Shown piece by piece: positions 15,661-34,170 of a DNA stretch of 43,605 bases (its first letter is position 1; each line of letters opens with the position of its first letter). The DNA is taken from the IMG/VR virus record IMGVR_UViG_3300045996_001347, positions 1 through 43,605 of that record, one strand, 5' to 3'. Below the pieces are notes generated by a model. It saw only the letters and a list, made by a program, of their open reading frames with translations, did no database searches and was not told the DNA's origin. This DNA comes from a virus. The translations under genes were made by a program, and so were the position numbers.

Positions 15661-15689
15661 TATAACGGAATACACGAAAAAAAATCGCT
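15661..15689 (-). promoter_or_regulatory. Phage ECF-type promoter, head operon
   Basis: AGCGAT at 15689-15684, 16-base spacer starting with a T-run, then CGTTATA at 15667-15661. Matches the other five copies in spacing and core. It points to the small gene at 15632, scaffold and capsid. Confidence 0.75.
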
Positions 15690-15701
15690 AACTATTTTTA
15701 A

Positions 15702-15709
15702 TATCTTTG
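15702..15709 (+). promoter_or_regulatory. Host-type -7 box with start codon at the predicted +1
   Basis: TATCTTTG whose last G is four bases from the ATG at 15713, where the first transcribed base is expected. It would give a leaderless message. It lies back to back with the phage-type promoter. No -33 TTTG at the right distance. Confidence 0.4.
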
Positions 15710-15712
15710 AAC

Positions 15713-16003
15713 ATGCCTGATTATTTCGAAGCATACAATAAGCACGAGGAAAAGGAAACAGCTATTTCGCTGCCTGATACATACGCCTTTTTTATCCGGT
15801 ATTACGATACGGAATTAAAAGAGAAAGTTGATTTAACGCACAGGCTTATCCCGAGAAGCATTACACAGTTACGGCCCTTAAAGGATAATGATGTTTTACT
15901 GATAATAACTTTTGGCGATACTGTATTACACAGGAAAATAAGTTCATGGGATTATAAAAAGCATATTGCCATAAGAGAGGATTTCAACATTGAAGATACC
16001 TGA
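15713..16003 (+). CDS. Hypothetical protein, 96 aa, with in-frame continuation after UGA
   Basis: Starts MPDYFEAYNKHEEKETAISL; soluble, mixed alpha/beta. The TGA at 16001 is followed in the same frame by 55 further codons of protein-like sequence up to 16171. It is the first gene of a plus-strand trio opposite to the surrounding late genes. Function unknown. Confidence 0.6.
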   Translation: MPDYFEAYNKHEEKETAISLPDTYAFFIRYYDTELKEKVDLTHRLIPRSITQLRPLKDNDVLLIITFGDTVLHRKISSWDYKKHIAIREDFNIEDT

Positions 16004-16171
16004 CTGTTAAGTGAAACAGATCTGTCGAAGTTTTTCAGGAAGTCTTACATTGGTGGCTTGGCACACTCCAAAAAAGATTTTCGGCATTGGATAGATAATT
16101 TGAAAAACGAAGGTTATACCGATGAGGATTTGGAAAGGCGAATGCCTGGATGGAGAGAAGATTATTATTGA
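16004..16171 (+). other. In-frame extension beyond the UGA stop
   Basis: 55 codons in the frame of the gene at 15713, without a good start codon, beginning LLSETDLSKFFRKSYIGG and rich in charged and aromatic residues (DFRHWIDNLKNEGY). It is either a readthrough domain or the tail of a gene broken by a stop mutation. Confidence 0.5.
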
Positions 16172-16212
16172 ATGATTTTTAATGCATTATTTACAATAAA
16201 TTTACTTTTTGC

Positions 16213-16317
16213 ATGAAATATACACCAAAGAAGCTCGGAATATGGATGCTGCTGATTGAAGCATTAATTGGGTTGTTTCGCAAAAAGAAGAAACAGAATA
16301 AAAACTATTGGGATTAA
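16213..16317 (+). CDS. Tiny basic, partly hydrophobic protein, 34 aa
   Basis: Starts MKYTPKKLGIWMLLIEALIG, then a run of basic residues (FRKKKKQNK). Its TAA overlaps the next ATG (TAATG), indicating coupled translation. It could be a small membrane-associated peptide. Unrecognised. Confidence 0.5.
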   Translation: MKYTPKKLGIWMLLIEALIGLFRKKKKQNKNYWD

Positions 16318-16535
16318 TGGAAGAATATACTGAAAACTACTATACATCTCAGCGATTAATGGTAGAGCAGCTAAAGAAAAACATTGAAGGTATTAATGTG
16401 CTTGCTGCTAATATGCTGCACCCGCACGAAGAATATCCTGTCTTTGTGAAGTTGATGCAGAAGCTGGTTAAAAGCTATTCCGAAGGTTTGGAGGGTGAAC
16501 CGCTTTTTGAAAGTAAGAGTATTTGGGATTATTAA
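16317..16535 (+). CDS. Hypothetical helical protein, 72 aa
   Basis: ATG 16317 is preferred over an upstream TTG. Mostly helical (RLMVEQLKKNIEGINVLAAN), soluble. Last gene of the plus-strand trio before the oppositely oriented tRNA genes. No family recognised. Confidence 0.55.
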   Translation: MEEYTENYYTSQRLMVEQLKKNIEGINVLAANMLHPHEEYPVFVKLMQKLVKSYSEGLEGEPLFESKSIWDY

Positions 16536-16568
16536 AAGCTAAAGCCGCTCATTTCTGGGCGGTATATT

Positions 16569-16644
16569 GTCCCGAGTAAAGGATTCGAACCTTTAAAATC
16601 TTGTTTCTAAGACAAGCATGTTTACCAGTTTCATCAACTCGGGA
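16569..16644 (-). tRNA. tRNA-Leu (UAG anticodon)
   Basis: Acceptor stem TCCCGAG/CTCGGGA, anticodon stem CTTGT/ACAAG with loop CTTAGAA (anticodon UAG), T-arm with TTCGAAT. The D-loop is Leu-like, but the variable region is only about 5 bases rather than the long arm usual for tRNA-Leu. CCA is not encoded. Confidence 0.8.
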
Positions 16645-16652
16645 TTTCAATG

Positions 16653-16725
16653 AGGGCTTAGAGAGATTCGAACTCCCAATAGTTTGGTTCGTAGCCAAAT
16701 ACTTTATCCATTAAGTTATAAGCCC
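16653..16725 (-). tRNA. tRNA-Arg (ACG anticodon)
   Basis: Acceptor stem GGGCTTA/TAAGCCC, anticodon stem TTTGG/CCAAA with loop CTACGAA (anticodon ACG), T-loop TTCGAAT. CCA not encoded. Confidence 0.85.
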
Positions 16726-16729
16726 ATTA

Positions 16730-16801
16730 GGTGTTATATGGGATTCGAACCCATATCAACTGCTTCACAGGCAGTCCGCTTAACCATTAGCGTAATAACA
16801 C
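16730..16801 (-). tRNA. tRNA-His (GUG anticodon)
   Basis: Acceptor stem GTGTTAT/ATAACAC, anticodon stem ACTGC/GCAGT with loop CTGTGAA (anticodon GUG). Position 73 is C, as in tRNA-His, but the base before the first pair is T, so the extra G(-1) is not encoded. Confidence 0.85.
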
Positions 16802-16803
16802 AG

Positions 16804-16874
16804 TTACCCTACATGGATTCGAACCACGATAAACAGAATCAAAGTCTGTTGTCCTGCCGTTAGACGATAGGGTA
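16804..16874 (-). tRNA. tRNA-Gln (UUG anticodon)
   Basis: Acceptor stem TACCCTA/TAGGGTA, anticodon stem ACAGA/TCTGT with loop CTTTGAT (anticodon UUG), T-loop TTCGAAT, discriminator A. Confidence 0.85.
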
Positions 16875-16925
16875 ATAAAAACATAGCGAGGCTAAAGGTA
16901 GGCGCGAAATGTCGCCTCGTTTTAG

Positions 16926-16996
16926 TGCGGGAGAGAGGATTCGAACCTCTGACCTCCACTGCCATCAGTAGTGCGCTGCCGCTACGCTACCCCCGC
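16926..16996 (-). tRNA. tRNA-Ile (GAU anticodon)
   Basis: Acceptor stem GCGGGGG/CTCCCGC with one G-U pair, anticodon loop CTGATGG (anticodon GAU), T-loop TTCGAAT, discriminator A. The last anticodon-stem pair is A-C, a minor flaw. Confidence 0.8.
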
Positions 16997-17055
16997 AATG
17001 GATTCCCTTTTAGCTGATTATTTCTTCTTTCGAAGTTTCTCAACTCGCTATGTTA

Positions 17056-17132
17056 GTCGGGGTAGCAGGATTCGAACCTGCGAACACTACATCCCAAGTG
17101 TAGCCCGTGTAGCCATCTGCGGAACACCCCGA
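17056..17132 (-). tRNA. tRNA-Pro (UGG anticodon)
   Basis: Acceptor stem TCGGGGT/ACCCCGA, anticodon stem CTACA/TGTAG with loop CTTGGGA (anticodon UGG), T-loop TTCGAAT. It follows the terminator at 17136-17170 on the same strand. Confidence 0.85.
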
Positions 17133-17135
17133 AAT

Positions 17136-17170
17136 AAAAAAAGCCCCGAACGGTTTTCCGAACGGGGCTT
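17136..17170 (-). terminator. Rho-independent terminator upstream of the tRNA cluster
   Basis: AAGCCCCG/CGGGGCTT stem, an internal AA/AA bulge and an inner CGG-TTTT-CCG hairpin, followed on the minus strand by seven T. It ends the short transcript predicted to start near 17272. Confidence 0.85.
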
Positions 17171-17272
17171 AGGTAAATTATTTATGCAAGTTTTTACATA
17201 TACCAATCCCGTTCAACGCTTATGGGGCGAAGTTGCTGCGGGAGTTGAGTATGTGTAAAAATCATTTTCACG
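17137..17272 (-). ncRNA. Candidate stand-alone small RNA (~135 nt)
   Basis: Its own host-type promoter (17276-17307), a strong terminator at the 3' end, and in between a folded segment (17200-17262) with outer arms ACATATAC/GTATGTGT and inner CCCG/CGGG and CAAC/GTTG pairs. A 23-codon frame (starting MIFTHTQLPQQLRPISVERD) also fits inside, so it could encode a small peptide instead. Confidence 0.55.
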
Positions 17273-17275
17273 ATG

Positions 17276-17307
17276 CAAATATAATAGTTATTAACTAATT
17301 AACCAAA
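17276..17307 (-). promoter_or_regulatory. Host-type promoter of the small RNA
   Basis: Minus strand TTTG (17307-17304), 20 bases, TATATTTG (17283-17276). Both elements and the spacing match the Bacteroidetes housekeeping consensus. Confidence 0.7.
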
Positions 17308-17330
17308 AACAAGTTTATTTGAGGGAAGTT

Positions 17331-18170
17331 TTATTTATCTTTTTTTAACACTTCTTTATAAACTGGAATTGCCTGATGTCTGCAATTATAACCGCCGCGA
17401 TTGGCACAGAAATTAGCAGGGGTTGTATTTGGAATCATTCCGTTTCCCTTTACATTGTATTTTTCAATTTCCTTTGCCAAATTTTCAACAGGTATAAAAT
17501 CCATGTTCGCCCACCTAACGCATTGTGGCCGTGAATCTTTTATTACCGAACCGACATAGATAATAGCATTCATATCAAACTCCTGTAAAACCATGCTATT
17601 AATAGCACCATCGTATTGGCTTACAGCATCCCTCGCTATCTGCCCTGAATATCTTACAAGCTGTCCCTGCTTATCCTTATCGCCTAAAATATAGCTTTTC
17701 AGTTCCTTGCTTAATTCACTTATAGGTGAACCTAAAGTAATATTCTTGAATAATGTAGCTTTTACAGGTGCAACAAAATTGGCATCCATACCGGCGCCAA
17801 TTAAATTATCAGCCGTTGCATTGATAAGTTCCTGCTTAAAGGTATTCAGCTTTTTAACATCAATATCGACATCGCTTAAAGTGGAATGCAGTTCGGTATT
17901 CAGCTTTTCTATTTCATCAAAATCTTTAAGATATTTGGTAAGGTCTGTTTTCCCCGCTTCTTTTTTCAGCTTATTGGTGAGGGCGTTTATCCTGTCGTAA
18001 TTTGCTTTGGTGCGTTTGAATTTACCATCCTCATTCTCAAATTTATTCAGCTCATCGGCAATAATTTCATAAATGGACTTTTGCAGTTCTTCAGCATTTT
18101 TAACAATAGCATCTTCGGAAGCTGAAAATAAAGCATCCTTCTTATCAACTATTTTATTAACCTTATCCAC
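17331..18170 (-). CDS. MuF-like minor head protein, 279 aa
   Basis: The C-terminal ~110 residues show the MuF/SPP1 gp7 head-morphogenesis signature: ARDAVSQYDGAIN, a D-S-R-P-Q-C-V-R-W box and the closing ANRGGYNCRHQAIPVY. The N-terminal half is helical. GTG start overlaps the portal stop (TAGTG), so the two are coupled. It is packed with the portal in the procapsid. Confidence 0.75.
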   Translation of the reverse strand: MDKVNKIVDKKDALFSASEDAIVKNAEELQKSIYEIIADELNKFENEDGKFKRTKANYDRINALTNKLKKEAGKTDLTKYLKDFDEIEKLNTELHSTLSDVDIDVKKLNTFKQELINATADNLIGAGMDANFVAPVKATLFKNITLGSPISELSKELKSYILGDKDKQGQLVRYSGQIARDAVSQYDGAINSMVLQEFDMNAIIYVGSVIKDSRPQCVRWANMDFIPVENLAKEIEKYNVKGNGMIPNTTPANFCANRGGYNCRHQAIPVYKEVLKKDK

Positions 18171-19864
18171 TATGCGGCAGCCTGGTTATCCTGCAAAGGA
18201 ATTATTGTAGCTGTTTTAGGAATGTACAGCCCAATAATTGCATCCATTTCTTTAGCAATGGTATCATAAGCCGATTCTATAAATTTATCGCCCAATTTCT
18301 CCGCCGCAAGGCTTACCGCTTTATAAGCAACAAGATGCTTGATATGCATTTCCGGTGTAACCGTTCCTGACGCTAACATGGTGGTTATTTCATCTTCAGT
18401 CATGCCGAATAATACATCATACATGGAAGTAATATCTATCATGCGCTGTATCTTCTCAGAATTCGAGAAACTCTTACGTGATAGTGCTTTAAACGCTTCC
18501 ACTTTAAAAACCTGCGGGGCATTACTTTCTGATAACGATTTCAGTTTACCCAATAGATCGCTTTCCGTTTCAATCTTAAAATCAGTTGGCTTGTAAACAA
18601 CAGGTACTTCGGGTTTAGTGATGTTCCTGTATTTTTCGCAATACCATAGCGAATTATAAAAGATATTATCGAAGAAGTTATTGGATATTTTAGAAAGTGT
18701 GGAGAACTCTTCCTGATGATCCCATTCTTTCGCAACACCCGATTGCGCTTCCTGTGCGAAAACAAGGCTTAATGCTTTCTCGCCTTCCTGAATGTAATCT
18801 TTATATGCTTCACGCTGAATTGATAATATAGCGGTATCAGGCGCAAGGAAACGCACCATTGGCGTAGTATCCAATATTTCATCCCCAATACCGGCTTGTG
18901 CTTTGCGTTGGTATGTACCTAATGGAGAGCGTAAAACAAGTTTATGTGTACCACCGCATTTAGTACATTGCTTTTGGCAGTTTTCCGCTGCATCATATAC
19001 CAAACCATTCGTACAGGAATCGCAATCCATATACGCTTCCTCAACCAATGGAAATCCACATTTAACCATTGATGCCTGGTGCTGTGAGAATTGCACAATA
19101 GCTTCATCTGCAAACGGCAGGTATAAAGCAAAATAGCTTTCGAAGTAGCCTTCCATTTCCTCACCGCCCAGCACGATAACAGGAACTTCGCCAAAATTAT
19201 GCTTGTAAACAGGTAATAACTGGAATTTATAATCTGACTTTAACCCGTATTGCTCTATCCTGTAAAATTCGGTTTCGGTCAATAAAAAATATACTTTGCC
19301 CTCCGCTTTATTCTCACCATTTACGGAAACAATACTTTTTTCATCGGTTAAATAGCAAACCGCCTCTGCCGTTAAGGTGTGGATTTTATCGCTATCAATC
19401 AACTCAGGTTTAACTTCCACTTTAACGGTTTCATCTGTTAAACCTTCGCCGCTTGGCAACCACACCAATAAACCATTTGGATCTTCGATCATTCTGCGAA
19501 TAACCATCTTATCGAGGTACATCCAAAAGTCTAAATTCTCACGCTCACTTACTGCGAACTTCTTCGTATCGAGGTATTCCGCTAATTCTTTCGAGATGTT
19601 ATATGTATAGTTCGCATCATGGAAAAAACTATGCAGGCGCGATATAGCACGGTTTACCGGCCCTTTGGTTATTGCCCTGTAATTCGCTTTACGGAAATCA
19701 ATACTTTCCTGCTGTTCGTTCGGGAACACCTGCTCGATAAGTTTTTTAGGATATGTGCCGCGCGTATGTATCTTCATACTTTCGGCATGTTCCACCCAAT
19801 CCTTGCTATTGGCAGGCTTTGCTTTATAATCGAATTCCTTTATAAAATCTTCAGCTATAAACAT
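18170..19864 (-). CDS. Portal protein candidate, 564 aa
   Basis: Position directly before the MuF gene and size fit a phage portal. ATG 19864 (MFIAEDFIKEFD) is preferred to a TTG at 19885. The chain includes a portal-like wing region and a long C-terminal helical stretch. An unusual insert at about residues 281-307 (CDSC...CQKQCTKCGG) is a zinc-ribbon-like knuckle. The portal is the DNA gate at the capsid vertex. Confidence 0.65.
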   Translation of the reverse strand: MFIAEDFIKEFDYKAKPANSKDWVEHAESMKIHTRGTYPKKLIEQVFPNEQQESIDFRKANYRAITKGPVNRAISRLHSFFHDANYTYNISKELAEYLDTKKFAVSERENLDFWMYLDKMVIRRMIEDPNGLLVWLPSGEGLTDETVKVEVKPELIDSDKIHTLTAEAVCYLTDEKSIVSVNGENKAEGKVYFLLTETEFYRIEQYGLKSDYKFQLLPVYKHNFGEVPVIVLGGEEMEGYFESYFALYLPFADEAIVQFSQHQASMVKCGFPLVEEAYMDCDSCTNGLVYDAAENCQKQCTKCGGTHKLVLRSPLGTYQRKAQAGIGDEILDTTPMVRFLAPDTAILSIQREAYKDYIQEGEKALSLVFAQEAQSGVAKEWDHQEEFSTLSKISNNFFDNIFYNSLWYCEKYRNITKPEVPVVYKPTDFKIETESDLLGKLKSLSESNAPQVFKVEAFKALSRKSFSNSEKIQRMIDITSMYDVLFGMTEDEITTMLASGTVTPEMHIKHLVAYKAVSLAAEKLGDKFIESAYDTIAKEMDAIIGLYIPKTATIIPLQDNQAAA

Positions 19865-21166: not shown

Positions 21167-23104
21167 CTATACTTTTTTAGCCAAAGCGATTACACTATAT
21201 AAAAGCGAACTATCTAATTCATTGGTATCTATTGTGAAACTCGCAATCTTTGTTACGGCATCATACGTTACATCAACCGCACTCATGGTATCATTCGTAA
21301 GCTGGTCTAACCTTACACTCGCATAGCTCTCTTCCTCAATAACATTAGCCAGTCCGAAAACCTGCTTATCCAATAATGCCAAAAGGTTATATGAATCCGC
21401 AACAGCACCAAATAATTTAGCTTCCACGATATATGAATTGCCGGGTATGATAACATTGGTATAATTGCCGGAAACAGCATTTTTATATTTAACACTTTCG
21501 ATTATTGTTCCACTGCTATTCTCATATTCCCGTACATCAATCTTTTGTGTATAGGTAATGGCATCGTAATATGGATTAGGTGCGTTGTAATAATTCAGCG
21601 TGAGCTTATATTCGAGATAAACCGTTTTGCCAACCCATGTATTAGTCGCTTCATCACGTATGCGAAAAGTAGTTTCAATAGTAGCTTCGCCATCTGCGTT
21701 TGTAGTAAATTCGGCATCAATATCTAAGTTATTTGATTTATTGACTAAGTTATATTGATACGGCCCAACATCACCAACAGAAAAGCCAACCTGGTCAATA
21801 TATGCTGAATCTACAATGGTTCGTGTTGTGCCATCCAATGTATAAAATGTAATATCAAGCCTTGCAAAATATGCCCATATAGAAATAAAGCCTGTCCAGT
21901 AATTCGCTATGCAGGTAGCCAAATCAAGCCCATCAATGGTAATGGTAGATTTTATCCTGTCCAAAGGTGCTGCCGTAATATAATCGCCATAAGTCCTGTT
22001 ATAGCATTTTAAAGAACCTGTGAAATCAGGAGAACAACCCGGCGGATAAGCATCTGCAAGGATTTCTCCTGATATAAAGCTGTTTACAAGGCTCCCGCCA
22101 TCGTAGTAAAGTGCTATGATCCTGTATGTGCCGTTAAAATCAAGGTTTGCAGGTGCTATATTGAATGTTGTTTCTTTCTCACCACCTACCACTGCCAACG
22201 CTGTTACCGGCCCTTGTATATTATTATTTATAATAGCACTCGATCCCGTTGTAGTTAATTGTGTAAAGCTCGCTTCATAATTGGCATAAAATGTTTTATT
22301 ATTATTTGCCGTATCAGTCCGTATAAGCCATGCCGCCACTGCATTGGGCGCACCGGTAATATACATTTTGACTGTTGTAATTTCGTAAGTGCTTAGTTTT
22401 GTAGTATCCGCCCCGGTGCTATCTAATAATTCCAAACGCGGATCTGTGAACTCACTCGCTCCTGCGTTTAATCCTGAATCAAAGAAACGTAGATTGAAGT
22501 TTACCGGGTGAAATATGGAATCTACCAATAATGAACCTTCAACAACAAACTGAACATTTATGTAACAAAGCAACTGCCTTACGCCATTATACACACTCGC
22601 ATCGCTGTTATCCAAAACATCGGAATTGGTAATGTTATTTTTTAGCAGCCTGTCATTATTCTGAATTGGTAAGCCTGAAATAAAGCCGTTAATATCTGCG
22701 GTAAGGTAGAATTCTAATTGTATGGAAAAATCGCCAACTGTGGCACTCGGTATATAATAACACTTCCAGTTTTGATTTACCGATTGATACGAACCATTGC
22801 CGAATAATGCCATTTCATACGGTGTGCCGCTTGACATAGATGAATAAGGTGCTATATAATAACCCGCTCCGCTTTGATCGGGGTAGAAGCCTGCCGATAT
22901 AAATAACGCAGGATTGAATATTACCTCTTTGCCTACTAATGAATTAGTACCGGTTGTATCGGGATTAACGAATGTGCATGCAAGCAACAGTGTTTTTTTA
23001 TCACCAATAGCACCTAATGTATAAACAGCATTTGCCGCCAATATTATATCAGGCAGTAAGGCGTTATGTGTTTTTACTGTTGTTGTATTTACTGTGATAC
23101 TCAT
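21167..23104 (-). CDS. Large tail fibre/tip structural protein, 645 aa
   Basis: Almost entirely beta structure with repeated Thr/Asn/Val-rich modules (TTVKMYITGAPNAVAAWLIR; TEATIETTFRIRD-like segments), no cysteine knots or signal peptide. Lies between tail-tip genes. The annotated end ...IALAKKV sits on an A6 run, and another frame continues with protein-like sequence into the next gene. Likely a host-contact or tail-tip protein. Confidence 0.55.
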   Translation of the reverse strand: MSITVNTTTVKTHNALLPDIILAANAVYTLGAIGDKKTLLLACTFVNPDTTGTNSLVGKEVIFNPALFISAGFYPDQSGAGYYIAPYSSMSSGTPYEMALFGNGSYQSVNQNWKCYYIPSATVGDFSIQLEFYLTADINGFISGLPIQNNDRLLKNNITNSDVLDNSDASVYNGVRQLLCYINVQFVVEGSLLVDSIFHPVNFNLRFFDSGLNAGASEFTDPRLELLDSTGADTTKLSTYEITTVKMYITGAPNAVAAWLIRTDTANNNKTFYANYEASFTQLTTTGSSAIINNNIQGPVTALAVVGGEKETTFNIAPANLDFNGTYRIIALYYDGGSLVNSFISGEILADAYPPGCSPDFTGSLKCYNRTYGDYITAAPLDRIKSTITIDGLDLATCIANYWTGFISIWAYFARLDITFYTLDGTTRTIVDSAYIDQVGFSVGDVGPYQYNLVNKSNNLDIDAEFTTNADGEATIETTFRIRDEATNTWVGKTVYLEYKLTLNYYNAPNPYYDAITYTQKIDVREYENSSGTIIESVKYKNAVSGNYTNVIIPGNSYIVEAKLFGAVADSYNLLALLDKQVFGLANVIEEESYASVRLDQLTNDTMSAVDVTYDAVTKIASFTIDTNELDSSLLYSVIALAKKV

Positions 23105-23304
23105 GCAATCGCTTCGTTATATGCTTTAATAACTGCCTCTTTAGCTTGTTTTTCAGTTCGGCATAATTTGCCTCTAATAATTTTATTGTCTTTTGATAGC
23201 AACCAAGCCGTTTCTCCGTGTCTTGTATTTTTTAATGATAAATCATATCCATTTACCGTAGCATAGCAATCACCTTCTTTACCTATCCACAATATTTCTT
23301 TCAT
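23101..23304 (-). CDS. Hypothetical tail-region protein, 67 aa
   Basis: Beta-hairpin-rich N-terminus (ILWIGKEGDCYATVNGYDLS) and a helical C-terminus (EKQAKEAVIKAYNEAIA). Overlaps the next gene by 4 bases, and a phage-type promoter lies 81 bases upstream inside the preceding gene. Function unknown. Confidence 0.5.
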   Translation of the reverse strand: MKEILWIGKEGDCYATVNGYDLSLKNTRHGETAWLLSKDNKIIRGKLCRTEKQAKEAVIKAYNEAIA

Positions 23305-24950
23305 TACACTTTGCCTTTAACTGTCATTGTTTGCGCCTTGCGGTTTACGGCAATACTTTCTATTGAGCCTGTGCCGGTTTCGAGAATAACGGAATTCGCG
23401 GAATTTAATCGCTCGTACTCCTCACAATTATATTTGAAAGTAAATTCGTACTCATACCGCTTTGCCGGAACTTCCCTGGAATCCTCAATATAAAAGAAAT
23501 CGGCATAGATATTATTTTCCTCATCAGGCAGGAAACGGAACGCCTTATTATTCTCTTTCACAAAAGCATAACTGCGTGGTGTTTTGGAATCCCACAGCAA
23601 TACTTTAGGCAGGCCGATTGTTTCTTTAGAAAATATTACCGCCTTCGTGGTTTCCTTTATAACCTTACCAAAAAGGGCGGAGGAAACATACATCTCGAAT
23701 ATCGTCTGTTCTGCTAAATCCCCGTTAAACCTCGGAACGCCGTAAGGAATAACAAATTTCTTATACTCGTTTTTAAAGGGCGAATACGGCTCTCGCATGG
23801 ATATATTCAATGTGAACTTCTCGCGCAATACTTCAGAACCGGTATCATCCACCCCATCATGCATATAGGTAAATGTTGCGGCAGCCGGTGAACCTGTATT
23901 TATCCATTTATAGGAAACGCCCGAAATAAGCCTGGCGCCTAATTGTTGCACATCAATAAATACTCCCGTACCGTTGATAATGTCTTTGCGTTCAAAATAT
24001 AAGATACCATCGCGCACCCGCCACTCAGCATTGAACTGTTGCTTTATTTCATCTAAGAATTCTACGCCTGTCATTACCGGTTTATTGTCATCTATCCAAT
24101 ATATGTTGCTTGTTTTTGATACACCGCCCTTTATTGATGCCGTGAGGTAAACAGAATCATAATAATAGCTTGCAGGATCATTTAAAATACTCGAGCGAAA
24201 TTCCAATCCTGCCGTTGTGCAAATGTTGTTTATATAATCGCGGATAAGTGGTGCGGGGTGTACGTTCCCGGTTCCTAATGCCCTGTTTTTTATCTGGTCT
24301 ATCCAATCAGTTGCTTTATTCAGCGCATCGGAATAATCTGTTATATCATTGGGTATATTACCGCCAATCACAGCTTTAATAACTTTCGCCTGTTCCCGCC
24401 AGTAAATAACCCATGCCACAACAGGCTTAAAAGCATCGAATACAACAACTATGAATGATGTTAATGCCAGTACGATATAATGCAGCCAGCGCGGTTTCAA
24501 TTCATTGTTATACGCGATGCGCGGGTGTTCAATATCCTGTATAGCACCATCGCTGATTAGCGTTGTTTTCAGGATGTTTAAAGCATAGGCATCTGCGGAA
24601 ATATCTGTGAGTTCTGCCGTAGCGTAACAATGTTGTGAATCCCAATCTAAGCCTTTGCCCCAAATTGCCCCTGTTATCGGTGTTTCCTCATTGCAGCAAT
24701 CATCGTATATATATACCGTGAAATAACTTTCAGCAGCATTTACGGCATCAATGAGGTAATCTTTAATGAGGTCATAACCATCATCAAAGAATGTTAATTC
24801 AGAGGAATAGGAAGTAGCCCCTTCGCCTGTATAATTCTTATTAATGGTGAGTTCATCCAAACCGGTTATCCGCCCTGTTATGGTTCGGGTGAAACTCAGA
24901 TATTGCCCTGTTGTGGGGTGTGGCCCTGTGTAATTAAATACTACTCTCAT
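23304..24950 (-). CDS. Tail tip protein (distal tail/Tal-like), 548 aa
   Basis: Directly downstream of the tape measure gene, the usual place of distal-tail and Tal proteins. N-terminal beta domain, then a hydrophobic stretch near residues 155-185 (HYIVLALTSFIVVVFDAF...VAWVIYW) that could insert in a membrane, and a C-terminal region like the Tal/gp27 family. The start overlaps the upstream stop (TAATG). Confidence 0.55.
   Translation of the reverse strand: MRVVFNYTGPHPTTGQYLSFTRTITGRITGLDELTINKNYTGEGATSYSSELTFFDDGYDLIKDYLIDAVNAAESYFTVYIYDDCCNEETPITGAIWGKGLDWDSQHCYATAELTDISADAYALNILKTTLISDGAIQDIEHPRIAYNNELKPRWLHYIVLALTSFIVVVFDAFKPVVAWVIYWREQAKVIKAVIGGNIPNDITDYSDALNKATDWIDQIKNRALGTGNVHPAPLIRDYINNICTTAGLEFRSSILNDPASYYYDSVYLTASIKGGVSKTSNIYWIDDNKPVMTGVEFLDEIKQQFNAEWRVRDGILYFERKDIINGTGVFIDVQQLGARLISGVSYKWINTGSPAAATFTYMHDGVDDTGSEVLREKFTLNISMREPYSPFKNEYKKFVIPYGVPRFNGDLAEQTIFEMYVSSALFGKVIKETTKAVIFSKETIGLPKVLLWDSKTPRSYAFVKENNKAFRFLPDEENNIYADFFYIEDSREVPAKRYEYEFTFKYNCEEYERLNSANSVILETGTGSIESIAVNRKAQTMTVKGKV
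23385..23413 (-). promoter_or_regulatory. Intragenic copy of the phage ECF-type promoter
   Basis: AGCGAT at 23413-23408 and CCGTTAT at 23392-23386 with the same 16-base spacer, inside the 3' end of the tail-tip gene. It would serve the 67-aa gene and the 645-aa fibre gene. As coding sequence it could be chance, so confidence is lower. Confidence 0.5.
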
Positions 24951-27109
24951 TAGTTGAATTTACCGTTACGCCTGTCATGCTTGAATTGCAGTCTTTGCAC
25001 TGAAGCGAATATGCCGCGTTCATCAATTACCATAGAACTTTTTTCCTGCCCGAGAATAGCACGTTCTATACGGTCTAATCTTGTTTCAACACCCTTGTTA
25101 TCGAATTTAGGATTGGAGCTTTGTAGTAATCCTGCGAAATTTGGCGTTTGAATGCCTGCCAGTTGCGCCATTAATGATTCGGGGCGTAATCCTTTGTTTT
25201 TATGTAGTGCCTCAAATACGCCCCTGTGTTTGCGTGTTGTTTCCTGGTCGAATACGAACTCTCCTTTGTGAACTTTACCTGCAACATCATATTTACCACC
25301 ATCACCGGTATAACCACCTTCAGCAAATCCGGCATCTTTTAAGGCTTGTGCTTGTGCAATACCACCACCAACGGCTACAAGTACCGCCGCTATTAAAGGA
25401 AGCGCACCCAATCCACCACCTTGCGCGGCTGCTTTTGCTATTGCAACAGTCATTTCGGATGTAAACTCTGCCGCGTTAATTATTGCCTGTGCTTTGGCGA
25501 ACTTCTCACGTTTGGATTGTAATTCATCTAATCGCGCCTGCTCTGTTTCGAGTAAGGAAATATTGCCTTCTTTGGCGAGTTCTTCAGCACGTGCAACTTT
25601 CGCTTCTTGTGCGGATATTTCTTTGTCGATGTTAGATATTTGGAGTTGTAAGAGGTTGTCTGCAATTTCCTTTACGGTGTTGGCAATATCTGCATAAAGC
25701 TGTTTACGTTTTTCTGCTTCTTCCTCAACCTTTTTTGTTTTCGCTTCTTCCAGTTTATCGTGATGTTCTGCCGCATCTTCACGTAGCTTTGATAGTTGTT
25801 TTTCTTTGATACCTTCCGGCATATTATCAACATCTACATTTGATAATTCAACATCAACTTTTTCTAAGTTCTTCCTGGCTAAACGTTGTTTTTGCAAGGC
25901 TGCTTCTTCATCTCTTTTTGCGTTTTCTTTTGCATTTTTTCCGGTGGCATCATCTATCTGCTTTTGGACTCTATAAATTTCCTTTTGTATTTCTAAGAAT
26001 TTAGAAGAACCAATAATTTGCTTACCAAGCATTTCTTCATACATTGCCTTTTCCTGCTTCAGGCCATCTAATGTAACCTTTGACCTTTCCTTTTCAATTT
26101 GTTTAAGTGCTTCGTTTTCTAACATCTGCTTAGCTAATAAATCACCTTTATTTGCAGCAGACTGTAAGCTTGAATACAATCCATCTAAAAATTGACTGCC
26201 AACTCTTTTACCGGAATTTTTTACAACATCGCCCGGCAGCGTTCCTTTAAAAAACCATGTTAATCCAATATCCAGTTTTTCTAAACCTTGCGCAAGTACA
26301 ACGCCCATATCAATCAGCATTTTACCAAAACCGATCTTGAAATTATTCCATTGGGCTGCATACCTGTCAACCTTAACCGATGCACTATCTAAAATTTCCC
26401 CTTGCTTCGCCACTTCCTGGGCCATGATGTTTGAAACAGCGGTTGCAAAATCACCTGTTTTCTTCATTTCATCACGCACAGCAGCAGCAGAAATGCCCAA
26501 GTTGTCAATAATCATTATTGACTGTCTTGAAATACCTAATACTGCGGATTCTACAAGGAAATCAACACTTTCACCTGTATCTTTTGCGCGTTGCTGAGCG
26601 AAGGCAAACATGTTAGCCAATGCATCCAAAGGAATTTTGAAGTTATTCGCTTTAACAGCGTTTTGCATCAAAACAATATCACTAACCGTACCCCTGGTTG
26701 CTGCTCGTAACTTATCCAGTAAATCAGGCCTGTTTAATTTGGCAAAAGCTCTTTCAATACCTTCTGCCTGTAATGCCGCTTGTGCCGCTTCTTTAGCGAA
26801 ATTCAGCATTATATTAAGCGCACCAAAAGCCGCTAATGCCTTTCCTGCGCTCTTTAAATTATCGGATAAGCCGGATGTAGATTTAGCCGCGTTGCCTGTA
26901 TCTCCGCTAAGTTGGCGTATTTTAGTTTGAGTAACGGCTAATTGTGTATTGTATTCTTTTAAATCTGTGTCATTATTGGCGGCATCTCGCGCCTTTGCTA
27001 ATTCTTTTTCTTTCTCTATAAGAGCTTTTAAAATTACGGCAGTTTGTTTTAATTGTTCATCGTCTGATGTGAATTTATTCGCCCAAATAATATCTTTTAT
27101 CTCTTGCAT
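24950..27109 (-). CDS. Tail tape measure protein, 719 aa
   Basis: Start ATG 27109 (MQEIKDIIWANKF), not the TTG at 27142, which overlaps a promoter. Long helical and coiled-coil chain (residues 30-110, 340-520), a hydrophobic Ala/Gly-rich segment (GGLGALPLIAAVLVAVGGGI) and the typical C-terminal GGYTGDGGKYDVAGKVHKGEF. Its length sets tail length, here consistent with a siphovirus tail of roughly 100 nm. Confidence 0.8.
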   Translation of the reverse strand: MQEIKDIIWANKFTSDDEQLKQTAVILKALIEKEKELAKARDAANNDTDLKEYNTQLAVTQTKIRQLSGDTGNAAKSTSGLSDNLKSAGKALAAFGALNIMLNFAKEAAQAALQAEGIERAFAKLNRPDLLDKLRAATRGTVSDIVLMQNAVKANNFKIPLDALANMFAFAQQRAKDTGESVDFLVESAVLGISRQSIMIIDNLGISAAAVRDEMKKTGDFATAVSNIMAQEVAKQGEILDSASVKVDRYAAQWNNFKIGFGKMLIDMGVVLAQGLEKLDIGLTWFFKGTLPGDVVKNSGKRVGSQFLDGLYSSLQSAANKGDLLAKQMLENEALKQIEKERSKVTLDGLKQEKAMYEEMLGKQIIGSSKFLEIQKEIYRVQKQIDDATGKNAKENAKRDEEAALQKQRLARKNLEKVDVELSNVDVDNMPEGIKEKQLSKLREDAAEHHDKLEEAKTKKVEEEAEKRKQLYADIANTVKEIADNLLQLQISNIDKEISAQEAKVARAEELAKEGNISLLETEQARLDELQSKREKFAKAQAIINAAEFTSEMTVAIAKAAAQGGGLGALPLIAAVLVAVGGGIAQAQALKDAGFAEGGYTGDGGKYDVAGKVHKGEFVFDQETTRKHRGVFEALHKNKGLRPESLMAQLAGIQTPNFAGLLQSSNPKFDNKGVETRLDRIERAILGQEKSSMVIDERGIFASVQRLQFKHDRRNGKFN

Positions 27110-27124: not shown

Positions 27125-27153
27125 ACAAACGAATGAGAGCAAAAAAAATCGCT
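27125..27153 (-). promoter_or_regulatory. Phage ECF-type promoter, tape measure operon
   Basis: AGCGAT (27153-27148), 16 bases, CGTTTG (27131-27126). The tape measure ATG at 27109 lies about 15 bases past the -10-like element. The -10 half is the least conserved of the six copies. Confidence 0.65.
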
Positions 27154-28149: not shown

Positions 28150-28178
28150 AGCGATTTTTTTTACGCTATTCCGTTCTC
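28150..28178 (+). promoter_or_regulatory. Phage ECF-type promoter, antirepressor unit
   Basis: AGCGAT (28150-28155), 16 bases with a T-run, CGTT (28172-28175). The only copy on the plus strand. It drives the structured leader and the Rha antirepressor, tying that gene to the late programme. Confidence 0.75.
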
Positions 28179-28181: not shown

Positions 28182-28496
28182 ATAACCACGTTAAAATTTA
28201 ATGTAAAATGATAGCATATTTTCAAGTCCGTACTTCCTTCATTCAGATTTTTGCGTGGTTGCATACACTTCTTTACAGGTGTACGGACTTTTCCTTTACA
28301 GAACGGCAATCCTATTCAAGTCAGGTATTTGAAAAGGAATGCCGTTTTTATTTAAAATTATTCACCGACCTAAATAATTTTTGTCTAACTTTAAGTAAAC
28401 AGAACGGCACGAGCCATTTTATAAACCGAAAGCCCTTCCACGCCAATGGAAGAGCTTTCAAAACCTTTATTAACAGTTCACTAAAAAAGTAAAAAA
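28182..28496 (+). promoter_or_regulatory. Structured 5' leader of the antirepressor gene
   Basis: About 315 bases with three stems. Stem 1: AAGTCCGTAC (28224-28233) with GTACGGACTT (28281-28290) and T-run; strand AACCACG (28184-28190) can pair with CGTGGTT (28254-28260) across it. Stem 2: 28302-28312 with 28336-28346, one mismatch, then T5. Stem 3: 28428-28440 with 28447-28459, one mismatch. The 11-base ACAGAACGGCA occurs twice (28298, 28399) and could swap partners. A 94-codon frame across it is not believed. Confidence 0.6.
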
Positions 28497-29327
28497 ATGA
28501 ACAGTACAAAACTAACACAAATTTCAGAAACAAATGGTTTCAATTACGAAGAACTGGTATCTGTCTTAAATGACGAAGTAATTACATCTTCGAAAATCCT
28601 TGCAGAACGCTTTAACAAAAGACATGACGATGTTTTGAAGGCAATCCGTAATCTTGAATGTAGCGATAACTTTCGACTCCGCAATTTTGCGGAGTCCTCT
28701 TATCTTAACGAACAGAACAAGTTACAGCCTGAATTCCAAATCTCACAAGATGGTTTCATGTTTCTTGCAATGGGTTTTACCGGAAAAGAAGCTGCAAAAA
28801 CGAAAGAGCAATTTATTTATTCTTTCAACAGAATGCGCGAGGCTTTAAATGCCATAAAGGAACGCGCTATGCAGACACAGCCTATTTCTGATAGCGAGAT
28901 TATGGCAAAGGCTCTAATGATAGCGCAAAAGCAGATTGCAGCCACTACGCATCGGCTGCAACATGTAGAAGAAGAAAAAAAACTACTCGAAGGCACTATA
29001 AAAGAGCAAGCGCCAATAGTTGAATACGCTAATAACGTACTTCTTTCACCAAACGCATTAAGAGCTACACAAATTGGTAGCGAGTTTGGAATGAGTGCGA
29101 TAAGGTTTAATAAACTATTGCAGCATTTAAAAATACACAGGAAGGTTAACGGCCAATGGGTTCTTACATCACAATATCAGGGATTTGAATACACCAAAAC
29201 TGAAACTCACCATTTTACACATAAAGATGGAACTCCTGGAACCAGCACATCTACAGTTTGGACTGAAAAAGGAAAGCAATTTTTACATGAAGTTTTGAAA
29301 GATTACAAACCTAAAAAACAAGCATAA
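28497..29327 (+). CDS. rha: Rha-family antirepressor with KilAC-like C-terminus, 276 aa
   Basis: N-terminal ~110 residues show the Rha pattern: VITSSKILAERFNKRHDDVLKAIRNL, then ISQDGFMFLAMGFTGKEAAK and YSFNRMREAL. A helical linker follows (residues ~125-170), then a KilAC/ANT-type domain (LRATQIGSEFGMSAIRFNKLL and GKQFLHEVLKDYK). Such proteins act as phage antirepressors or regulators. The gene lies opposite to the late genes. Confidence 0.8.
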   Translation: MNSTKLTQISETNGFNYEELVSVLNDEVITSSKILAERFNKRHDDVLKAIRNLECSDNFRLRNFAESSYLNEQNKLQPEFQISQDGFMFLAMGFTGKEAAKTKEQFIYSFNRMREALNAIKERAMQTQPISDSEIMAKALMIAQKQIAATTHRLQHVEEEKKLLEGTIKEQAPIVEYANNVLLSPNALRATQIGSEFGMSAIRFNKLLQHLKIHRKVNGQWVLTSQYQGFEYTKTETHHFTHKDGTPGTSTSTVWTEKGKQFLHEVLKDYKPKKQA

Positions 29328-29792: not shown

Positions 29793-30625
29793 TTATTTGT
29801 TTTTTATTCTTAAAAATGTATTTAGAATGTTGTAAAATTCATCTGAAGAAAGCTTTTCGAGTTCGCGCTGCTTAATAGGATCTCTATTCGCCATAGCATA
29901 AGCCATATCGTTTATATCAGCGAAATACTTATCAATGAGTTTCTTTATTGATAGCGGTCTAAATCCTGCTGCGTCTCCGTAAGATAATTCATGATATTGA
30001 TGCCTGATAATTCGCCAGAACTGTTGATAGAACTGTAAACCGAAGACAAAAAAAAAGCTTTAGCCTGTTGGTCTTTATTCCACAATTCTATTTTCTTACG
30101 CTGAAATGGAATATCGTATGCTTCCGGATCTTCATCTTCCGACAAAAAATAAACTGTTGCGAGGTCAAGCAATGTTTTTTCTTCAGCGCATAATGCCAGG
30201 CGTGTTTCAATCTCTGAAATATATTTGAATGCCTTTACGATGTTACCGGCATTGCACTCGTTTTTGATTTCCGTAATAAGTTTAGTTAAATCATCGCGCG
30301 TTATATTCATGGAAAGGTAACGTGTTGCAACTTCAGCCGCTATGCCCCTGCCATAAGGTATCTGGGTGATGTTTTCGTAAGTGTACCAACGTTTGCCGGT
30401 ACTGTCCGTATAAACATGCTTTAGGCTGTAATTTTTCTTTTGCAACGGAGCGAATAGCAATAAACTTGCACGCGCTGCTGCCTCCTGATCTGTTTCTAAT
30501 AACCTGTCAACAACTTGCCTGTTTTCTTTCAGGTATGTATCAATAACTTCAAGATTGTTTAATACCGCCACTTTAAGTAGCTCCTGGCGCTTGGAGATGT
30601 ATTTGAGAACAAGTTTATTTATCAT
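29793..30625 (-). CDS. Predicted -1 frameshift product of the tail assembly chaperone gene, 277 aa
   Basis: A run of nine T on the coding strand (30056-30048) ends in the slippery T TTT TTG. Slipping back one base leaves residues 1-192 unchanged and continues with 85 more (FGLQFYQQFWRIIRHQYHEL..., ending FLRIKNK) to a TAA at 29793. The extension fills a gap that has no other gene. Lambda-type gpG/gpGT tail chaperones use the same -1 shift just upstream of the tape measure gene. Confidence 0.55.
29945..30625 (-). CDS. Tail assembly chaperone candidate (unshifted form), 226 aa
   Basis: Helical, soluble protein (e.g. LLKVAVLNNLEVIDTYLKEN) just ahead of the tape measure gene, with only the plus-strand island between. 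The final 33 residues after Leu193 are an alternative to the frameshifted tail. Assignment rests on order, size and the slippery run. Confidence 0.5.
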   Translation of the reverse strand: MINKLVLKYISKRQELLKVAVLNNLEVIDTYLKENRQVVDRLLETDQEAAARASLLLFAPLQKKNYSLKHVYTDSTGKRWYTYENITQIPYGRGIAAEVATRYLSMNITRDDLTKLITEIKNECNAGNIVKAFKYISEIETRLALCAEEKTLLDLATVYFLSEDEDPEAYDIPFQRKKIELWNKDQQAKAFFLSSVYSSINSSGELSGINIMNYLTETQQDLDRYQ

Positions 30626-30626
30626 A

Positions 30627-30881
30627 TTATTGATTTAATATATTCTGTATTTTTTCTTTTAATTCTGCGCTATCAGTCTTAATGCTAAATCGAACTTGCT
30701 TTACGTCTCCGGTTATTTCAATAGTAACTGGCTGATTCTCTGTATTTATTTTTTTGATTTTTTTGATAATAGAGTCAACGCCTTTCTTTACTCCTAATCC
30801 AATTAGGTAATCTCCATCAATTACAATATCTGTTCTTTTAACAGGATACTTAATGTTGTTTACGATTAATATTTTTGTCAT
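30627..30881 (-). CDS. Hypothetical protein, 84 aa
   Basis: ATG 30881 (MTKILIVNNIKYPVKRTD) is preferred over the GTG at 30905, which lies in the leader stem. Alternating beta strands and a basic helix. It starts the tail-chaperone unit and ends one base before the chaperone ATG region. A tail-tube subunit is conceivable, but the protein is small. Confidence 0.5.
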   Translation of the reverse strand: MTKILIVNNIKYPVKRTDIVIDGDYLIGLGVKKGVDSIIKKIKKINTENQPVTIEITGDVKQVRFSIKTDSAELKEKIQNILNQ

Positions 30882-30980: not shown

Positions 30981-31009
30981 TATAACGGAAACGGCTGAAA
31001 AAAATCGCT
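30981..31009 (-). promoter_or_regulatory. Phage ECF-type promoter, tail-chaperone unit
   Basis: AGCGAT (31009-31004), 16 bases, CGTTATA (30987-30981); the core is identical to the 15661 copy. Confidence 0.75.
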
Positions 31010-31452: not shown

Positions 31453-31455
31453 ATA

Positions 31456-31463
31456 CAAATATA
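31456..31463 (-). promoter_or_regulatory. Host-type -7 box with start codon at the predicted +1
   Basis: TATATTTG on the minus strand, last G four bases from the ATG at 31452, as at 15702-15709. No clear -33 element. Confidence 0.4.
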
Positions 31464-31469
31464 ATATTT

Positions 31470-32858
31470 TTATGCCTGTTTTTTATACATTCCTATCTGC
31501 TTTGAAAAATCTACCAGCCACGTGCTTTTTACATAGCGTACACAATCTAAGCAATCCCCACGCTGGTTTTCATCTTCGCGATTATCTTTCAAAATACCAC
31601 TATCCTCTTTCGCTTCGGTAAATTGCAATTCATTAACTGTTGTAGTCATTGAAGGATGAAACTTCAGATCAGGGTGCAAAGCAAATACCAGGTTAACGTG
31701 ATTTCTGTTGGTTGCTACATTCGGGTTTGCCTTAGGTACATTCAGCCTTGCATTGCTAATATGTAAGGTTTGCTGCAAATACAGCCAGTCATGGATATTA
31801 TCTCTCGTGGATGTCGTTCTTTTACGTGAGGTAGCATCACCTGTAAATAAAGCATTGTATAATATTTCGGGCGGGAACTCGTCCATTATCCTGTCCGCCA
31901 TTTTATATACATCACCAGGCTCCAGTATTATTTCTCTGAAGTAGTGCGTATGCATTCCCTCGCTATCGATCCAGTGATGTAAGCATAAACATACCATTGG
32001 GCTAACGTTAAAGTCAAGAGAGAAGCGGACAGGTATATTCGGGTTGAATTGGGCCTTTTCGCTTACATGGCGGTTTTTGTCAAAGTTATGTACCCAAGGG
32101 TTTTTTATTTCTTTTTTACCCCATAATCCTTTAGTAAAAACGAAATAATAAAATGGGTTTACTTTGCTTAATTGCTCAAGATTAGCCGCTCGTTGTGGTG
32201 AGCAATAAGGATTATCGTTGTAGGTTGTGTGAGTGGATGTGTACTTAATTGTGTAAGTCCTGCCATCTGCTAATCGTTGAGTAGTTGTTGATGTAAAGTT
32301 TTTGTAAATATCCCCAGGATAGTTAGCGAAATAGGTTTGATACAACCAAAAGTTTTCATAATCCCCATCGCATTCAGGATTAAAAGAAAACCACATTTGT
32401 ACTGCTGAATTATTACTTCTTAGCGATGTTGAAGCAATAATAAAATCGTCTAAGGTTAATTGATTCCCTTCCTCAAACCATGCGTGTGAAGGGTTGGCAA
32501 TAGATTTTAATTTACCGGGTTTGTCGCAGCCTCTCGCAATAAACTTATTTCCGTTAACGCATCTTATTTCAAGTGGTGAGGAATAAAAGTCAAATAAATG
32601 GCTCAAACCCCAGTCATCAACAATATCTTTAATAGTTTGCCATTGGGCATCTTTGATGCTTTCGGCTGTTTTCTTTATAAGAATACACCGAAAGTAATCT
32701 TTACTTAAACAATCTAATATTAATTTTTGGGCAATAAAATGAGATTTGCCGCTATCCCTGCCGCCCCAAAGAAAATTTATATCTGCATCACTTTCCAGTA
32801 AGTGTTGATAAGCAGGTAAAAATATATCTTCATCAATTTCAATTTCGGCAATTGCCAT
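31470..32858 (-). CDS. terL: Terminase large subunit, 462 aa
   Basis: ATPase domain: Walker A in LWGGRDSGKSHFIAQ and an acidic Walker B in HAWFEEGNQL. Nuclease domain: RFSLDFNVSPMVCLCL, LFTGDATSRKR and DCLDCVRYVKSTW supply the metal-binding acids. It drives ATP-powered DNA packaging and cuts the concatemer. Its ATG shares the small-subunit stop region. Confidence 0.9.
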   Translation of the reverse strand: MAIAEIEIDEDIFLPAYQHLLESDADINFLWGGRDSGKSHFIAQKLILDCLSKDYFRCILIKKTAESIKDAQWQTIKDIVDDWGLSHLFDFYSSPLEIRCVNGNKFIARGCDKPGKLKSIANPSHAWFEEGNQLTLDDFIIASTSLRSNNSAVQMWFSFNPECDGDYENFWLYQTYFANYPGDIYKNFTSTTTQRLADGRTYTIKYTSTHTTYNDNPYCSPQRAANLEQLSKVNPFYYFVFTKGLWGKKEIKNPWVHNFDKNRHVSEKAQFNPNIPVRFSLDFNVSPMVCLCLHHWIDSEGMHTHYFREIILEPGDVYKMADRIMDEFPPEILYNALFTGDATSRKRTTSTRDNIHDWLYLQQTLHISNARLNVPKANPNVATNRNHVNLVFALHPDLKFHPSMTTTVNELQFTEAKEDSGILKDNREDENQRGDCLDCVRYVKSTWLVDFSKQIGMYKKQA

Positions 32859-33295
32859 TATTTTTTCTTAATGATGACTTTTATTCCCTGTTGCTTATTA
32901 TCAATCTCAAAGAAACCAATATGCTTACCGATCATTTCAGTAGCTTTATTAGCGCCTGAGCTATCAAATTGGTAAATGTTGTTATCATCGGCATCTTTTG
33001 CATGTACCATGCTTTTATCGGCAGGACTCCAAATCATTACCGGTTCAGCCTGCATACACCTGTCGGATATTGACTTTAGCCTTTGCAACACCCATGTAGC
33101 ATCTATTTCAAGTTTTTCCGCCCTCGCTTTTTGTAGTTCTTCTATACGTGCGCGGATGTTAAGTTTTGCTAAGAGTTGAGAAGATTGTTCATTAGCTGTT
33201 TTTTCAGAATAACCTGCCCTTATAGCGGCTTGAGTACCGTTTAAGTCAATCAGGTATTCCTGGCAAAATATGTCTTGTTTTGTTGTGAGTTTCAT
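32858..33295 (-). CDS. terS: Terminase small subunit, 145 aa
   Basis: The N-terminus KLTTKQDIFCQEYLIDLNGT and QAAIRAGYSEKTANEQSSQL match the Terminase_2 helix-turn-helix, which recognises the packaging site. It lies directly before the large subunit. A gene ending TGA overlaps its start codon (ATGA). Confidence 0.85.
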   Translation of the reverse strand: MKLTTKQDIFCQEYLIDLNGTQAAIRAGYSEKTANEQSSQLLAKLNIRARIEELQKARAEKLEIDATWVLQRLKSISDRCMQAEPVMIWSPADKSMVHAKDADDNNIYQFDSSGANKATEMIGKHIGFFEIDNKQQGIKVIIKKK

Positions 33296-33359
33296 TGTAA
33301 TTCTTCCAGTTGAATATGAAGTCCTTTTATCTGTCTGCTCAATTCTTCTTTTATGTTTT

Positions 33360-33563
33360 TTATAAACACCTTGCCTGCTTCATTAAAATTACTTGTTGGA
33401 TTTTCAATATAAACATCTGTGATATAACTTCCTCGCGAAGCTGAACACCCACCTCCATTTGAATAATTGTTTCTTTCACGGATTCTTTGTGTTCCTTTTC
33501 AAAGTCGTAATCCTTAGCAATTTCATTTAAAGATTCCTGCAAACGTTTACAAAAGTTTTCCAT
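33360..33563 (-). CDS. Helical protein, 67 aa, probable frameshift into a longer form
   Basis: The N-terminal ~40 residues (MENFCKRLQESLNEIAKDYD...) look genuine; after that the reading becomes less protein-like, while the -1 frame is convincing (SYITDVYIENPTSNFNEAGK ... ELSRQIKGLHIQLEELQ) and ends at 33292, overlapping the terminase start. The real product may be about 90 aa. Function unknown. Confidence 0.45.
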   Translation of the reverse strand: MENFCKRLQESLNEIAKDYDFEKEHKESVKETIIQMEVGVQLREEVISQMFILKIQQVILMKQARCL

Positions 33564-33567
33564 TATA

Positions 33568-33741
33568 TTACGGATTGATATTCTTATTCCGGTAATGGTT
33601 AACCAGGATTATAATTACCACGAATACAACTGCCGATATTGCAGCACAGATGTAATAGTTTGGGTTTTGCTCTACATAACCGAAGTATATCAGCACAAGA
33701 ACAATTATTGCGAATACTATTTTCATTGCTAAATCTTTCAT
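33568..33741 (-). CDS. Small two-segment membrane protein, 57 aa
   Basis: Encodes MKDLAMKIVFAIIVLVLIYF, a polar turn, then a second hydrophobic stretch (CAAISAVVFVVIIILVNHY). Fits tightly between the 129-aa membrane gene and the next gene. Could be a holin-like or exclusion protein; no evidence beyond topology. Confidence 0.6.
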   Translation of the reverse strand: MKDLAMKIVFAIIVLVLIYFGYVEQNPNYYICAAISAVVFVVIIILVNHYRNKNINP

Positions 33742-33746
33742 GTTTG

Positions 33747-34136
33747 TTATTTTAGGATTATTAATAGAATGATCGTTAGTAAGAGTAACCCGAACTTAAT
33801 GATGTATTGGTTTACTTTGGCATTGGGAAGTTTTAGAAGCTGTTTATCAATGAATGATGTTTCACCGATATAGTCATAAGGCAGTTCACGAAATCTATTC
33901 AGGATTATATCGAATGCTATCCAGCGAATGGCAAGAGTTACCAAAACAAGCGCATTGGCGAACCATGTAATGCCAAATATGCCATTGGCAAGGGGAATAC
34001 ACAGCAGAATGTATATGGTGGATTCTACGCCATGCTTGGGCCATAATAAAGCCTGAATCTGCTTCTTATCAAACCACGCATTGAATACCATAGCGCCAAT
34101 CGCTATCAAAAAGTATATTGTTATTTTGAGTAACAT
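33747..34136 (-). CDS. Four-helix membrane protein, 129 aa
   Basis: Hydrophobic segments at the N-terminus (LLKITIYFLIAIGAMVF), two in the middle, and at the C-terminus (FGLLLLTIILLIIL). Its ATG coincides with the expected +1 of the phage-type promoter at 34142-34170, so the message may be leaderless. Role unknown. Confidence 0.6.
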   Translation of the reverse strand: MLLKITIYFLIAIGAMVFNAWFDKKQIQALLWPKHGVESTIYILLCIPLANGIFGITWFANALVLVTLAIRWIAFDIILNRFRELPYDYIGETSFIDKQLLKLPNAKVNQYIIKFGLLLLTIILLIILK

Positions 34137-34141
34137 AGCCT

Positions 34142-34170
34142 TATAACGGATTTTGTGAAAATTAATCGCT
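34142..34170 (-). promoter_or_regulatory. Phage ECF-type promoter, membrane/terminase block
   Basis: AGCGAT (34170-34165), 16 bases, CGTTATA (34148-34142), overlapping the 3' end of the upstream gene. First copy downstream of the sigma gene. Confidence 0.75.

Follow-up and report, generated by a model that had tools for sequence, protein, structure and literature searches.

A phage-borne ECF-type sigma factor and six predicted late promoters in a temperate, probably Bacteroidetes, phage

Phage-encoded sigma factors that direct blocks of phage genes are known. Salmonella phage 7-11 encodes the sigma factor SaPh711_gp47 and carries eight late promoters of the form GTAAtg-(16)-aCTA (PMC8948821). 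The same study describes gp36 of phage phiEco32 as a sigma factor for middle and late genes with six mapped promoters, and its authors predicted that more sigma/promoter pairs of such a kind would be found (PMC8948821). Among cellular ECF sigma factors, the open complex of Mtb SigH provides a structural reference: its -35 element, GGAAYA, occupies -34 to -29, GTT occupies -11 to -9, with an optimal spacer of 17 bp (PMC6411747).

Here, we describe a comparable arrangement in a viral record (IMGVR_UViG_3300045996_001347), analysed as a single window of 43,605 nt. A pattern scan of both strands found six exact copies of AGCGAT-N16-CGTT, all on the minus strand except for one on the plus strand, in agreement with a preliminary description of this DNA. 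Dinucleotide shuffles of the window (n=100) gave a mean of 0.12 copies and a maximum of one, and none of the 100 held six. AGCGAT by itself occurs 37 times in the window, so the signal lies in its pairing with CGTT at a single fixed spacing. With an 18-nt tandem repeat (42652-43354) set aside, AGCGAT/CGTT was the top gapped dyad of the window (p ~2e-9). The best chance dyads of control phages had p values of 2e-8 to 1e-6, which makes the dyad alone strong but not overwhelming. The reality of the six-site set is settled beyond this statistic by the full element. In the weight-matrix scan that the preliminary description had proposed, the six sites scored 34-41 bits and the next-best site 15, which is inside the shuffle range; no seventh site scoring near the six was found in the window. 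When each site was left out of the matrix in turn, the omitted site ranked first among all untrained positions. Equally good copies elsewhere or in shuffled versions, which would have spoken against the set, were thus not found.

In SigH numbering, the invariant positions are AGCGATT at -34 to -28, TT at -24/-23, T at -14 and CGTT at -12 to -9. The form given earlier as usual, TCCGTTATA, proved loose: TCCGTT holds in five of the six copies, but the following ATA in only three. Short two-part matches can arise by chance, as the control-phage dyads (down to p ~2e-8) illustrate, and a mobile or repetitive element could have been copied around the genome. Nevertheless, with no shuffle holding six copies and the next-best matrix site at the level of noise, chance is an extremely improbable source of the set. 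The same holds for a mobile element, as the copies differ from one another in their flanks and in most of the spacer, and one of them is part of a coding sequence.

The copies, with predicted transcription starts set 9 nt after CGTT, and the genes most relevant to them are as follows.

34145..34170, minus strand: predicted promoter copy 6; predicted start 34136; leads to the small and large terminase genes (Pfam)
31470..33295, minus strand: terminase large and small subunits, in the first late block (Pfam)
30984..31009, minus strand: predicted promoter copy 5; predicted start 30975; ahead of 30627-30881 and 29945-30625
28497..29327, plus strand: Rha-type regulator with KilAC/ANT antirepressor domain (Phage_pRha and ANT domains; TIGR02681 above cut-off)
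28150..28175, plus strand: predicted promoter copy 4; predicted start 28184; rightward, ahead of Rha/Ant 28497-29327
27128..27153, minus strand: predicted promoter copy 3; predicted start 27119; tape measure ATG at 27109
23388..23413, minus strand: predicted promoter copy 2; predicted start 23379; inside the 3' end of ORF 23304-24950
15664..15689, minus strand: predicted promoter copy 1; predicted start 15655; ahead of 15457-15633, 14644-15450 and 13300-14472

All six copies point toward a downstream gene, and four lie wholly outside genes. From the predicted start to the next same-strand start codon, the distances for copies 6, 5, 4, 3, 2 and 1 are 0, 94, 313, 10, 75 and 22 nt, respectively. 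Five of the six predicted starts are therefore no more than 110 nt from a start codon, compared with 8.7% of random sites (P ~3e-5). The block after copy 6 comprises 33747 and 33360, followed by the small and large terminase genes. Since its predicted start falls on the first base (A) of the ATG that opens ORF 33747-34136, the late minus-strand message from 34136 may be leaderless. Behind copy 5, gene 29945-30625 has homologues in relatives identified through the terminase. Copy 3 precedes the tape measure gene and 23304; the former most likely starts at the ATG at 27109 rather than at the listed TTG at 27142, which falls inside the element.

Copy 2 leads into a block that runs from 23101-23304 through the portal gene, which has a weak PHROG match and homologues in relatives, to 17331. 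After 17331 comes a 1.6-kb stretch without a minus-strand protein gene, within which six tRNA genes (Pro, Ala, Gln, His, Arg and Leu; 16569-17131, minus strand) are clustered, with a host-type promoter of their own just upstream at 17306. The block after copy 1 extends from 15457 through probable capsid, tail and endolysin genes; the probable capsid gene (13300-14472) is conserved in relatives, and the endolysin gene lies at 7044-7592.

The preliminary description had placed five copies just ahead of late blocks or the antirepressor gene and regarded the sixth as simply internal to the tail-tip gene. The first part stands, but copy 2, at the 3' end of its gene and 75 nt from its predicted start to the next start codon, also precedes a gene block. 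Copy 4 is oriented towards the antirepressor gene as described, but is less close than 'just ahead' implies, with a 313-nt leader (28184-28497, plus strand) separating its predicted start from the Rha/Ant start codon. An ORF within that leader (28208-28492) has one weak Pfam match, below cut-off, and no convincing family; the region may go untranslated or may hold a small gene that escaped recognition.

A candidate reader of these elements is encoded in the same genome.

34646..35170, minus strand: ECF-type sigma factor, 174 aa, regions 2 and 4 only (Pfam, PHROGs, PDB phmmer, Foldseek)

Its identification as an ECF-type sigma factor, proposed earlier, is borne out by matches to Pfam (Sigma70_r2, 2e-14; Sigma70_r4_2, 1e-9), the phage sigma family phrog_1740 (2e-29), NCBIfam superfamily TIGR02937 (above cut-off), and, in PDB phmmer searches, EcfG-type RpoE (4e-18) and Mtb SigH (8e-16). 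Foldseek also returned Mtb SigH among its top matches; the structure model is modest (pLDDT 69, with unreliable inter-domain placement), so only family-level matches were taken from the fold search. ECF (group IV) sigma factors were defined as having sigma2 and sigma4 only, joined by a linker of <50 residues, and the product of 34646-35170 has region 2 at 23-86 and region 4 at 112-161, with a linker of ~25 residues. The gene lies upstream of copy 6, although not directly adjacent as first described, with gene 34162-34656 in between. This neighbour has no family match and no relative among the viral contigs searched, and no family match of the other sigma neighbours names an anti-sigma. An ECF sigma factor with the same FEEGTNL loop was also seen in two very AT-rich (23% GC) phage contigs, L110 and L111, where it sits in a 511-aa open frame and thus has a long C-terminal extension.

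The protein and the DNA element can be compared position by position through SigH. The phage element, read as AGCGAT, 17 bp and GTT, is in the exact register of the SigH open complex, including the optimal 17-bp spacer, and upholds the earlier view that the spacing is that of ECF -35 and -10 elements. The SigH residues that form the -10/-9 pocket are F72, T76, N77, W81, I85 and N88 (PMC6411747). By alignment, these correspond to F60, T64, N65, W69, I73 and N76 of the phage sigma, all identical (FEEGTNLKNWLLRILHN); N92 of SigH, which touches the -11 pair, is Asp. The CGT expected in an ECF -10 element is present, as CGTT, in all six copies, and the -10 of the DNA agrees, at the level of aligned residues, with what the sigma protein predicts.

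The -35 element presents a different picture. The AAC typical of ECF promoters is absent, with AGCGAT in all six copies; this hallmark stems from early studied ECF members and is not an absolute rule (PMC8103513). S182, the SigH reader of G-33, is kept in the phage sigma, and G-33 is kept in the element. R186, which reads G-34 in SigH, is His, and -34 is A; M181, which contacts -31/-30, is Trp, and these positions are G and A. The -35 match thus consists of consistent paired residue and base differences, without amounting to a proven code.

Upstream of the sigma gene, a repressor gene flanked by operator-like palindromes was identified.

40135..41055, plus strand: CI-like repressor with HTH and S24 peptidase domains (Pfam and PHROGs)
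40033..40101, no strand assigned: three operator-like palindromes GTAAAnnnTTTAC; they overlap the predicted promoter of the next entry
40079 to 40050, minus strand: predicted leftward host-type promoter, TTG...TATATTTG
41182..41233, no strand assigned: two operator-like palindromes GTAAAnnnTTTAC, overlapping a rightward host-type promoter at 41203 (TTG...TATCTTTG)

Five copies of the palindrome (at 40033, 40058, 40089, 41182 and 41212) flank the repressor gene, and the window also encodes an integrase (PHROG 1, 1e-11), a combination of features expected of a temperate phage. Both the leftward (40079) and rightward (41203) promoters are of the Bacteroidetes type, with TTG, a spacer and TAnnTTTG, and the phage host is probably a member of the Bacteroidetes. 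The leftward operon carries a replication gene and a methyltransferase gene and continues to sigma. This anatomy accords with the preliminary description, in which early genes used ordinary host promoters and a sigma factor made under the leftward promoter switched on the late blocks, with the timing remaining an inference. A sigma-70 promoter scan and a terminator scan of the window did not rise above shuffles and were left unused.

At the ends of the record, positions 1-136 and 43460-43595 form a repeat of 99.3% identity that carries the 3' end of a hexapeptide-repeat gene. The ends may overlap because the record is circular, despite the sequence difference, or the gene end may have been duplicated. 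The 18-nt tandem repeat mentioned above (42652-43354), which comprises 39 copies and also has a higher period of 108 nt, encodes this hexapeptide-repeat protein (42555-43595).

Dispersed, non-palindromic repeats upstream of operons could also be operators, and the phage encodes Rha/Ant and several small proteins of no assigned function that might bind them as activator, repressor or antiterminator. That the six elements are such binding sites rather than core promoter elements is nevertheless very unlikely: their two blocks keep a single exact spacing while the bases between them vary, they are directional, they stand in exact ECF register with the -10 expected from the loop of the sigma factor, and the repressor operators of this phage are a different palindrome.

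The order of genes and promoters instead suggests a cascade from repressor to early operon to sigma factor to late blocks. Lytic induction would lift the CI-like repressor off the leftward promoter at ~40050, and the early leftward operon would then be transcribed into the sigma gene. The phage ECF sigma would join host core RNA polymerase and direct it to the six promoters through AGCGAT at -34 to -29, a 17-bp spacer and GTT at -11 to -9, with transcription predicted to start 9 nt after CGTT. The late blocks and the Rha/Ant gene would thereby be switched on, and the antirepressor made from copy 4 could lock the lytic decision. The window scan found no motif copy upstream of the sigma gene (35170), and hence no sign of the positive autoregulation of ECF systems; the design looks feed-forward. 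What the sequence itself shows is where the six sites lie, which way they point, that they precede genes, that the protein is an ECF sigma and that its DNA-reading residues match the motif; beyond this, we consider it very likely that the phage ECF sigma drives six late promoters, including that of Rha/Ant, under a repressor-controlled early operon.

How far this pairing extends to other phages was assessed in several sets of relatives. Searches of IMG/VR and GTDB genomes found only distant sigma homologues and no close ones, and the motif was absent from the viral contigs searched apart from a single chance match on an 86-kb contig. Among terminase relatives, the closest of which are 38-46% identical, sigma region 2 was found in none of 55 records. 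The DNA available for them also lacked the motif, although with ~3 copies expected by chance at the composition of the window, this absence is weak evidence alone. The portal gene, the probable capsid gene and 17331 were common to several of the eight terminase-relative records compared. A tape measure domain is shared with Porphyromonas gingivalis phages, and sigma was absent from both of those tested.

The preliminary description had anticipated the same motif near homologous sigma genes; however, no N6-N16-CGTT family was found in DAC19, BS162P1, cr10_1, KZY1, MT835510 or phiM9, six phages with distant sigma factors of the same family. Motif discovery in such sigma-bearing phages recovered host-type promoters in DAC19 (TACCTTTG) and BS162P1 (TTTG-TATA) and T4-like early-type promoters (GTTTAC...GATA) in phiM9, but no ECF-type promoter set. 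An upstream scan based on gene calls missed even the motif of the window itself, probably due to wrong automatic gene starts or too few copies, and so provides weak evidence of absence elsewhere. With no close homologue, the case for sigma and motif having been inherited together comes from a single genome and from absence in distant relatives; the pair appears to be tied together by this genome and the residue-level fit, and its generality is unproven.

These comparisons bear on whether a host ECF sigma could read the six promoters, tying late expression to a host stress signal and leaving the phage sigma to act on host genes. A CGTT/GTT -10 is used by host ECFs that share the GTN loop (EcfG, SigH and SigR types), and Bacteroidetes genomes carry related ECFs (NF058625 and TIGR02985 matches). 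Such a role is unlikely, however, as AGCGAT departs from GGAAC/GGAAY where the reader residues of the phage sigma differ, the sigma gene lies in the same genome one gene from the first site, and relatives without the sigma also lack the motif. The phage sigma, rather than a host ECF, would thus be the reader of the six sites.

Overall, this appears to be a temperate, probably Bacteroidetes phage, and we regard it as probable that its lytic late programme is run by its own ECF sigma with an altered -35 (AGCGAT for GGAAC), rather than by a lambda-Q-type antiterminator or activator, and that sigma factor and all six promoters together make up a self-contained, orthogonal pair controlled by a CI-like repressor. 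To our knowledge, late gene control in temperate Bacteroidetes phages is largely undescribed. Here, a regulator, its recognition sequence and a whole phage regulon are readable from one genome, so that a known kind of viral gene switch can be read directly from sequence in a new phage group. The changes associated with the -35 (Arg to His and Met to Trp) offer a direct test of ECF region 4 specificity, and the sigma-promoter pair could serve as an orthogonal expression tool.

Compared with known systems, the phage sigma shares its region 2 loop class (G-T/S-N-L-K) with Mtb SigH, Streptomyces SigR and EcfG, and its element shares the GTT/CGTT -10, at the same spacing, with those of SigH and EcfG (PMC6411747, PMC8103513). 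These relatives are stress regulators of cells, act with anti-sigma partners and read a GGAAY/GGAAC -35 (PMC6411747, PMC8103513), whereas the present sigma is phage-borne, is paired with AGCGAT and has no recognised anti-sigma. Bacteroides phages DAC16/19/20/22/23 and SJC03 and crAss-like phages carry members of the same broad sigma family (23-37% identical), but are large or uncultured, and those tested have no comparable N6-N16-CGTT set. Unlike the region 4-bearing sigma and bipartite element found here, phiEco32 gp36 has no homology to region 4 and works with one element only, tAATGTAtA (PMC8948821).

Phage 7-11 is closer. Both phages have a sigma factor with region 4, bipartite N6-(16)-N4 late promoters before several late blocks, and early genes on host-type promoters (sigma-70 in 7-11) that are transcribed leftward (PMC8948821). 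The present window accordingly holds the sequence elements of a 7-11-type system: a sigma with regions 2 and 4 and several bipartite promoter-like elements before late blocks, distinct from host-type promoters. However, 7-11 is a lytic enterobacterial podophage with different -35 and -10 elements; its sigma gene lies in the late cluster, rather than in an apparently early operon, and receives feedback from late promoter P48, whereas no copy precedes the sigma gene here; and the text consulted describes no CI-like repressor for it (PMC8948821). The earlier suggestion that such an arrangement was undescribed in temperate Bacteroidetes phages holds within our partial literature collection, where no example was found, but the principle is not new, since lytic 7-11 does likewise with GTAAtg-(16)-aCTA (PMC8948821). 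What is new here is the temperate, probably Bacteroidetes setting, with predicted repressor control and the sigma gene in an apparently early operon, and the non-canonical -35.
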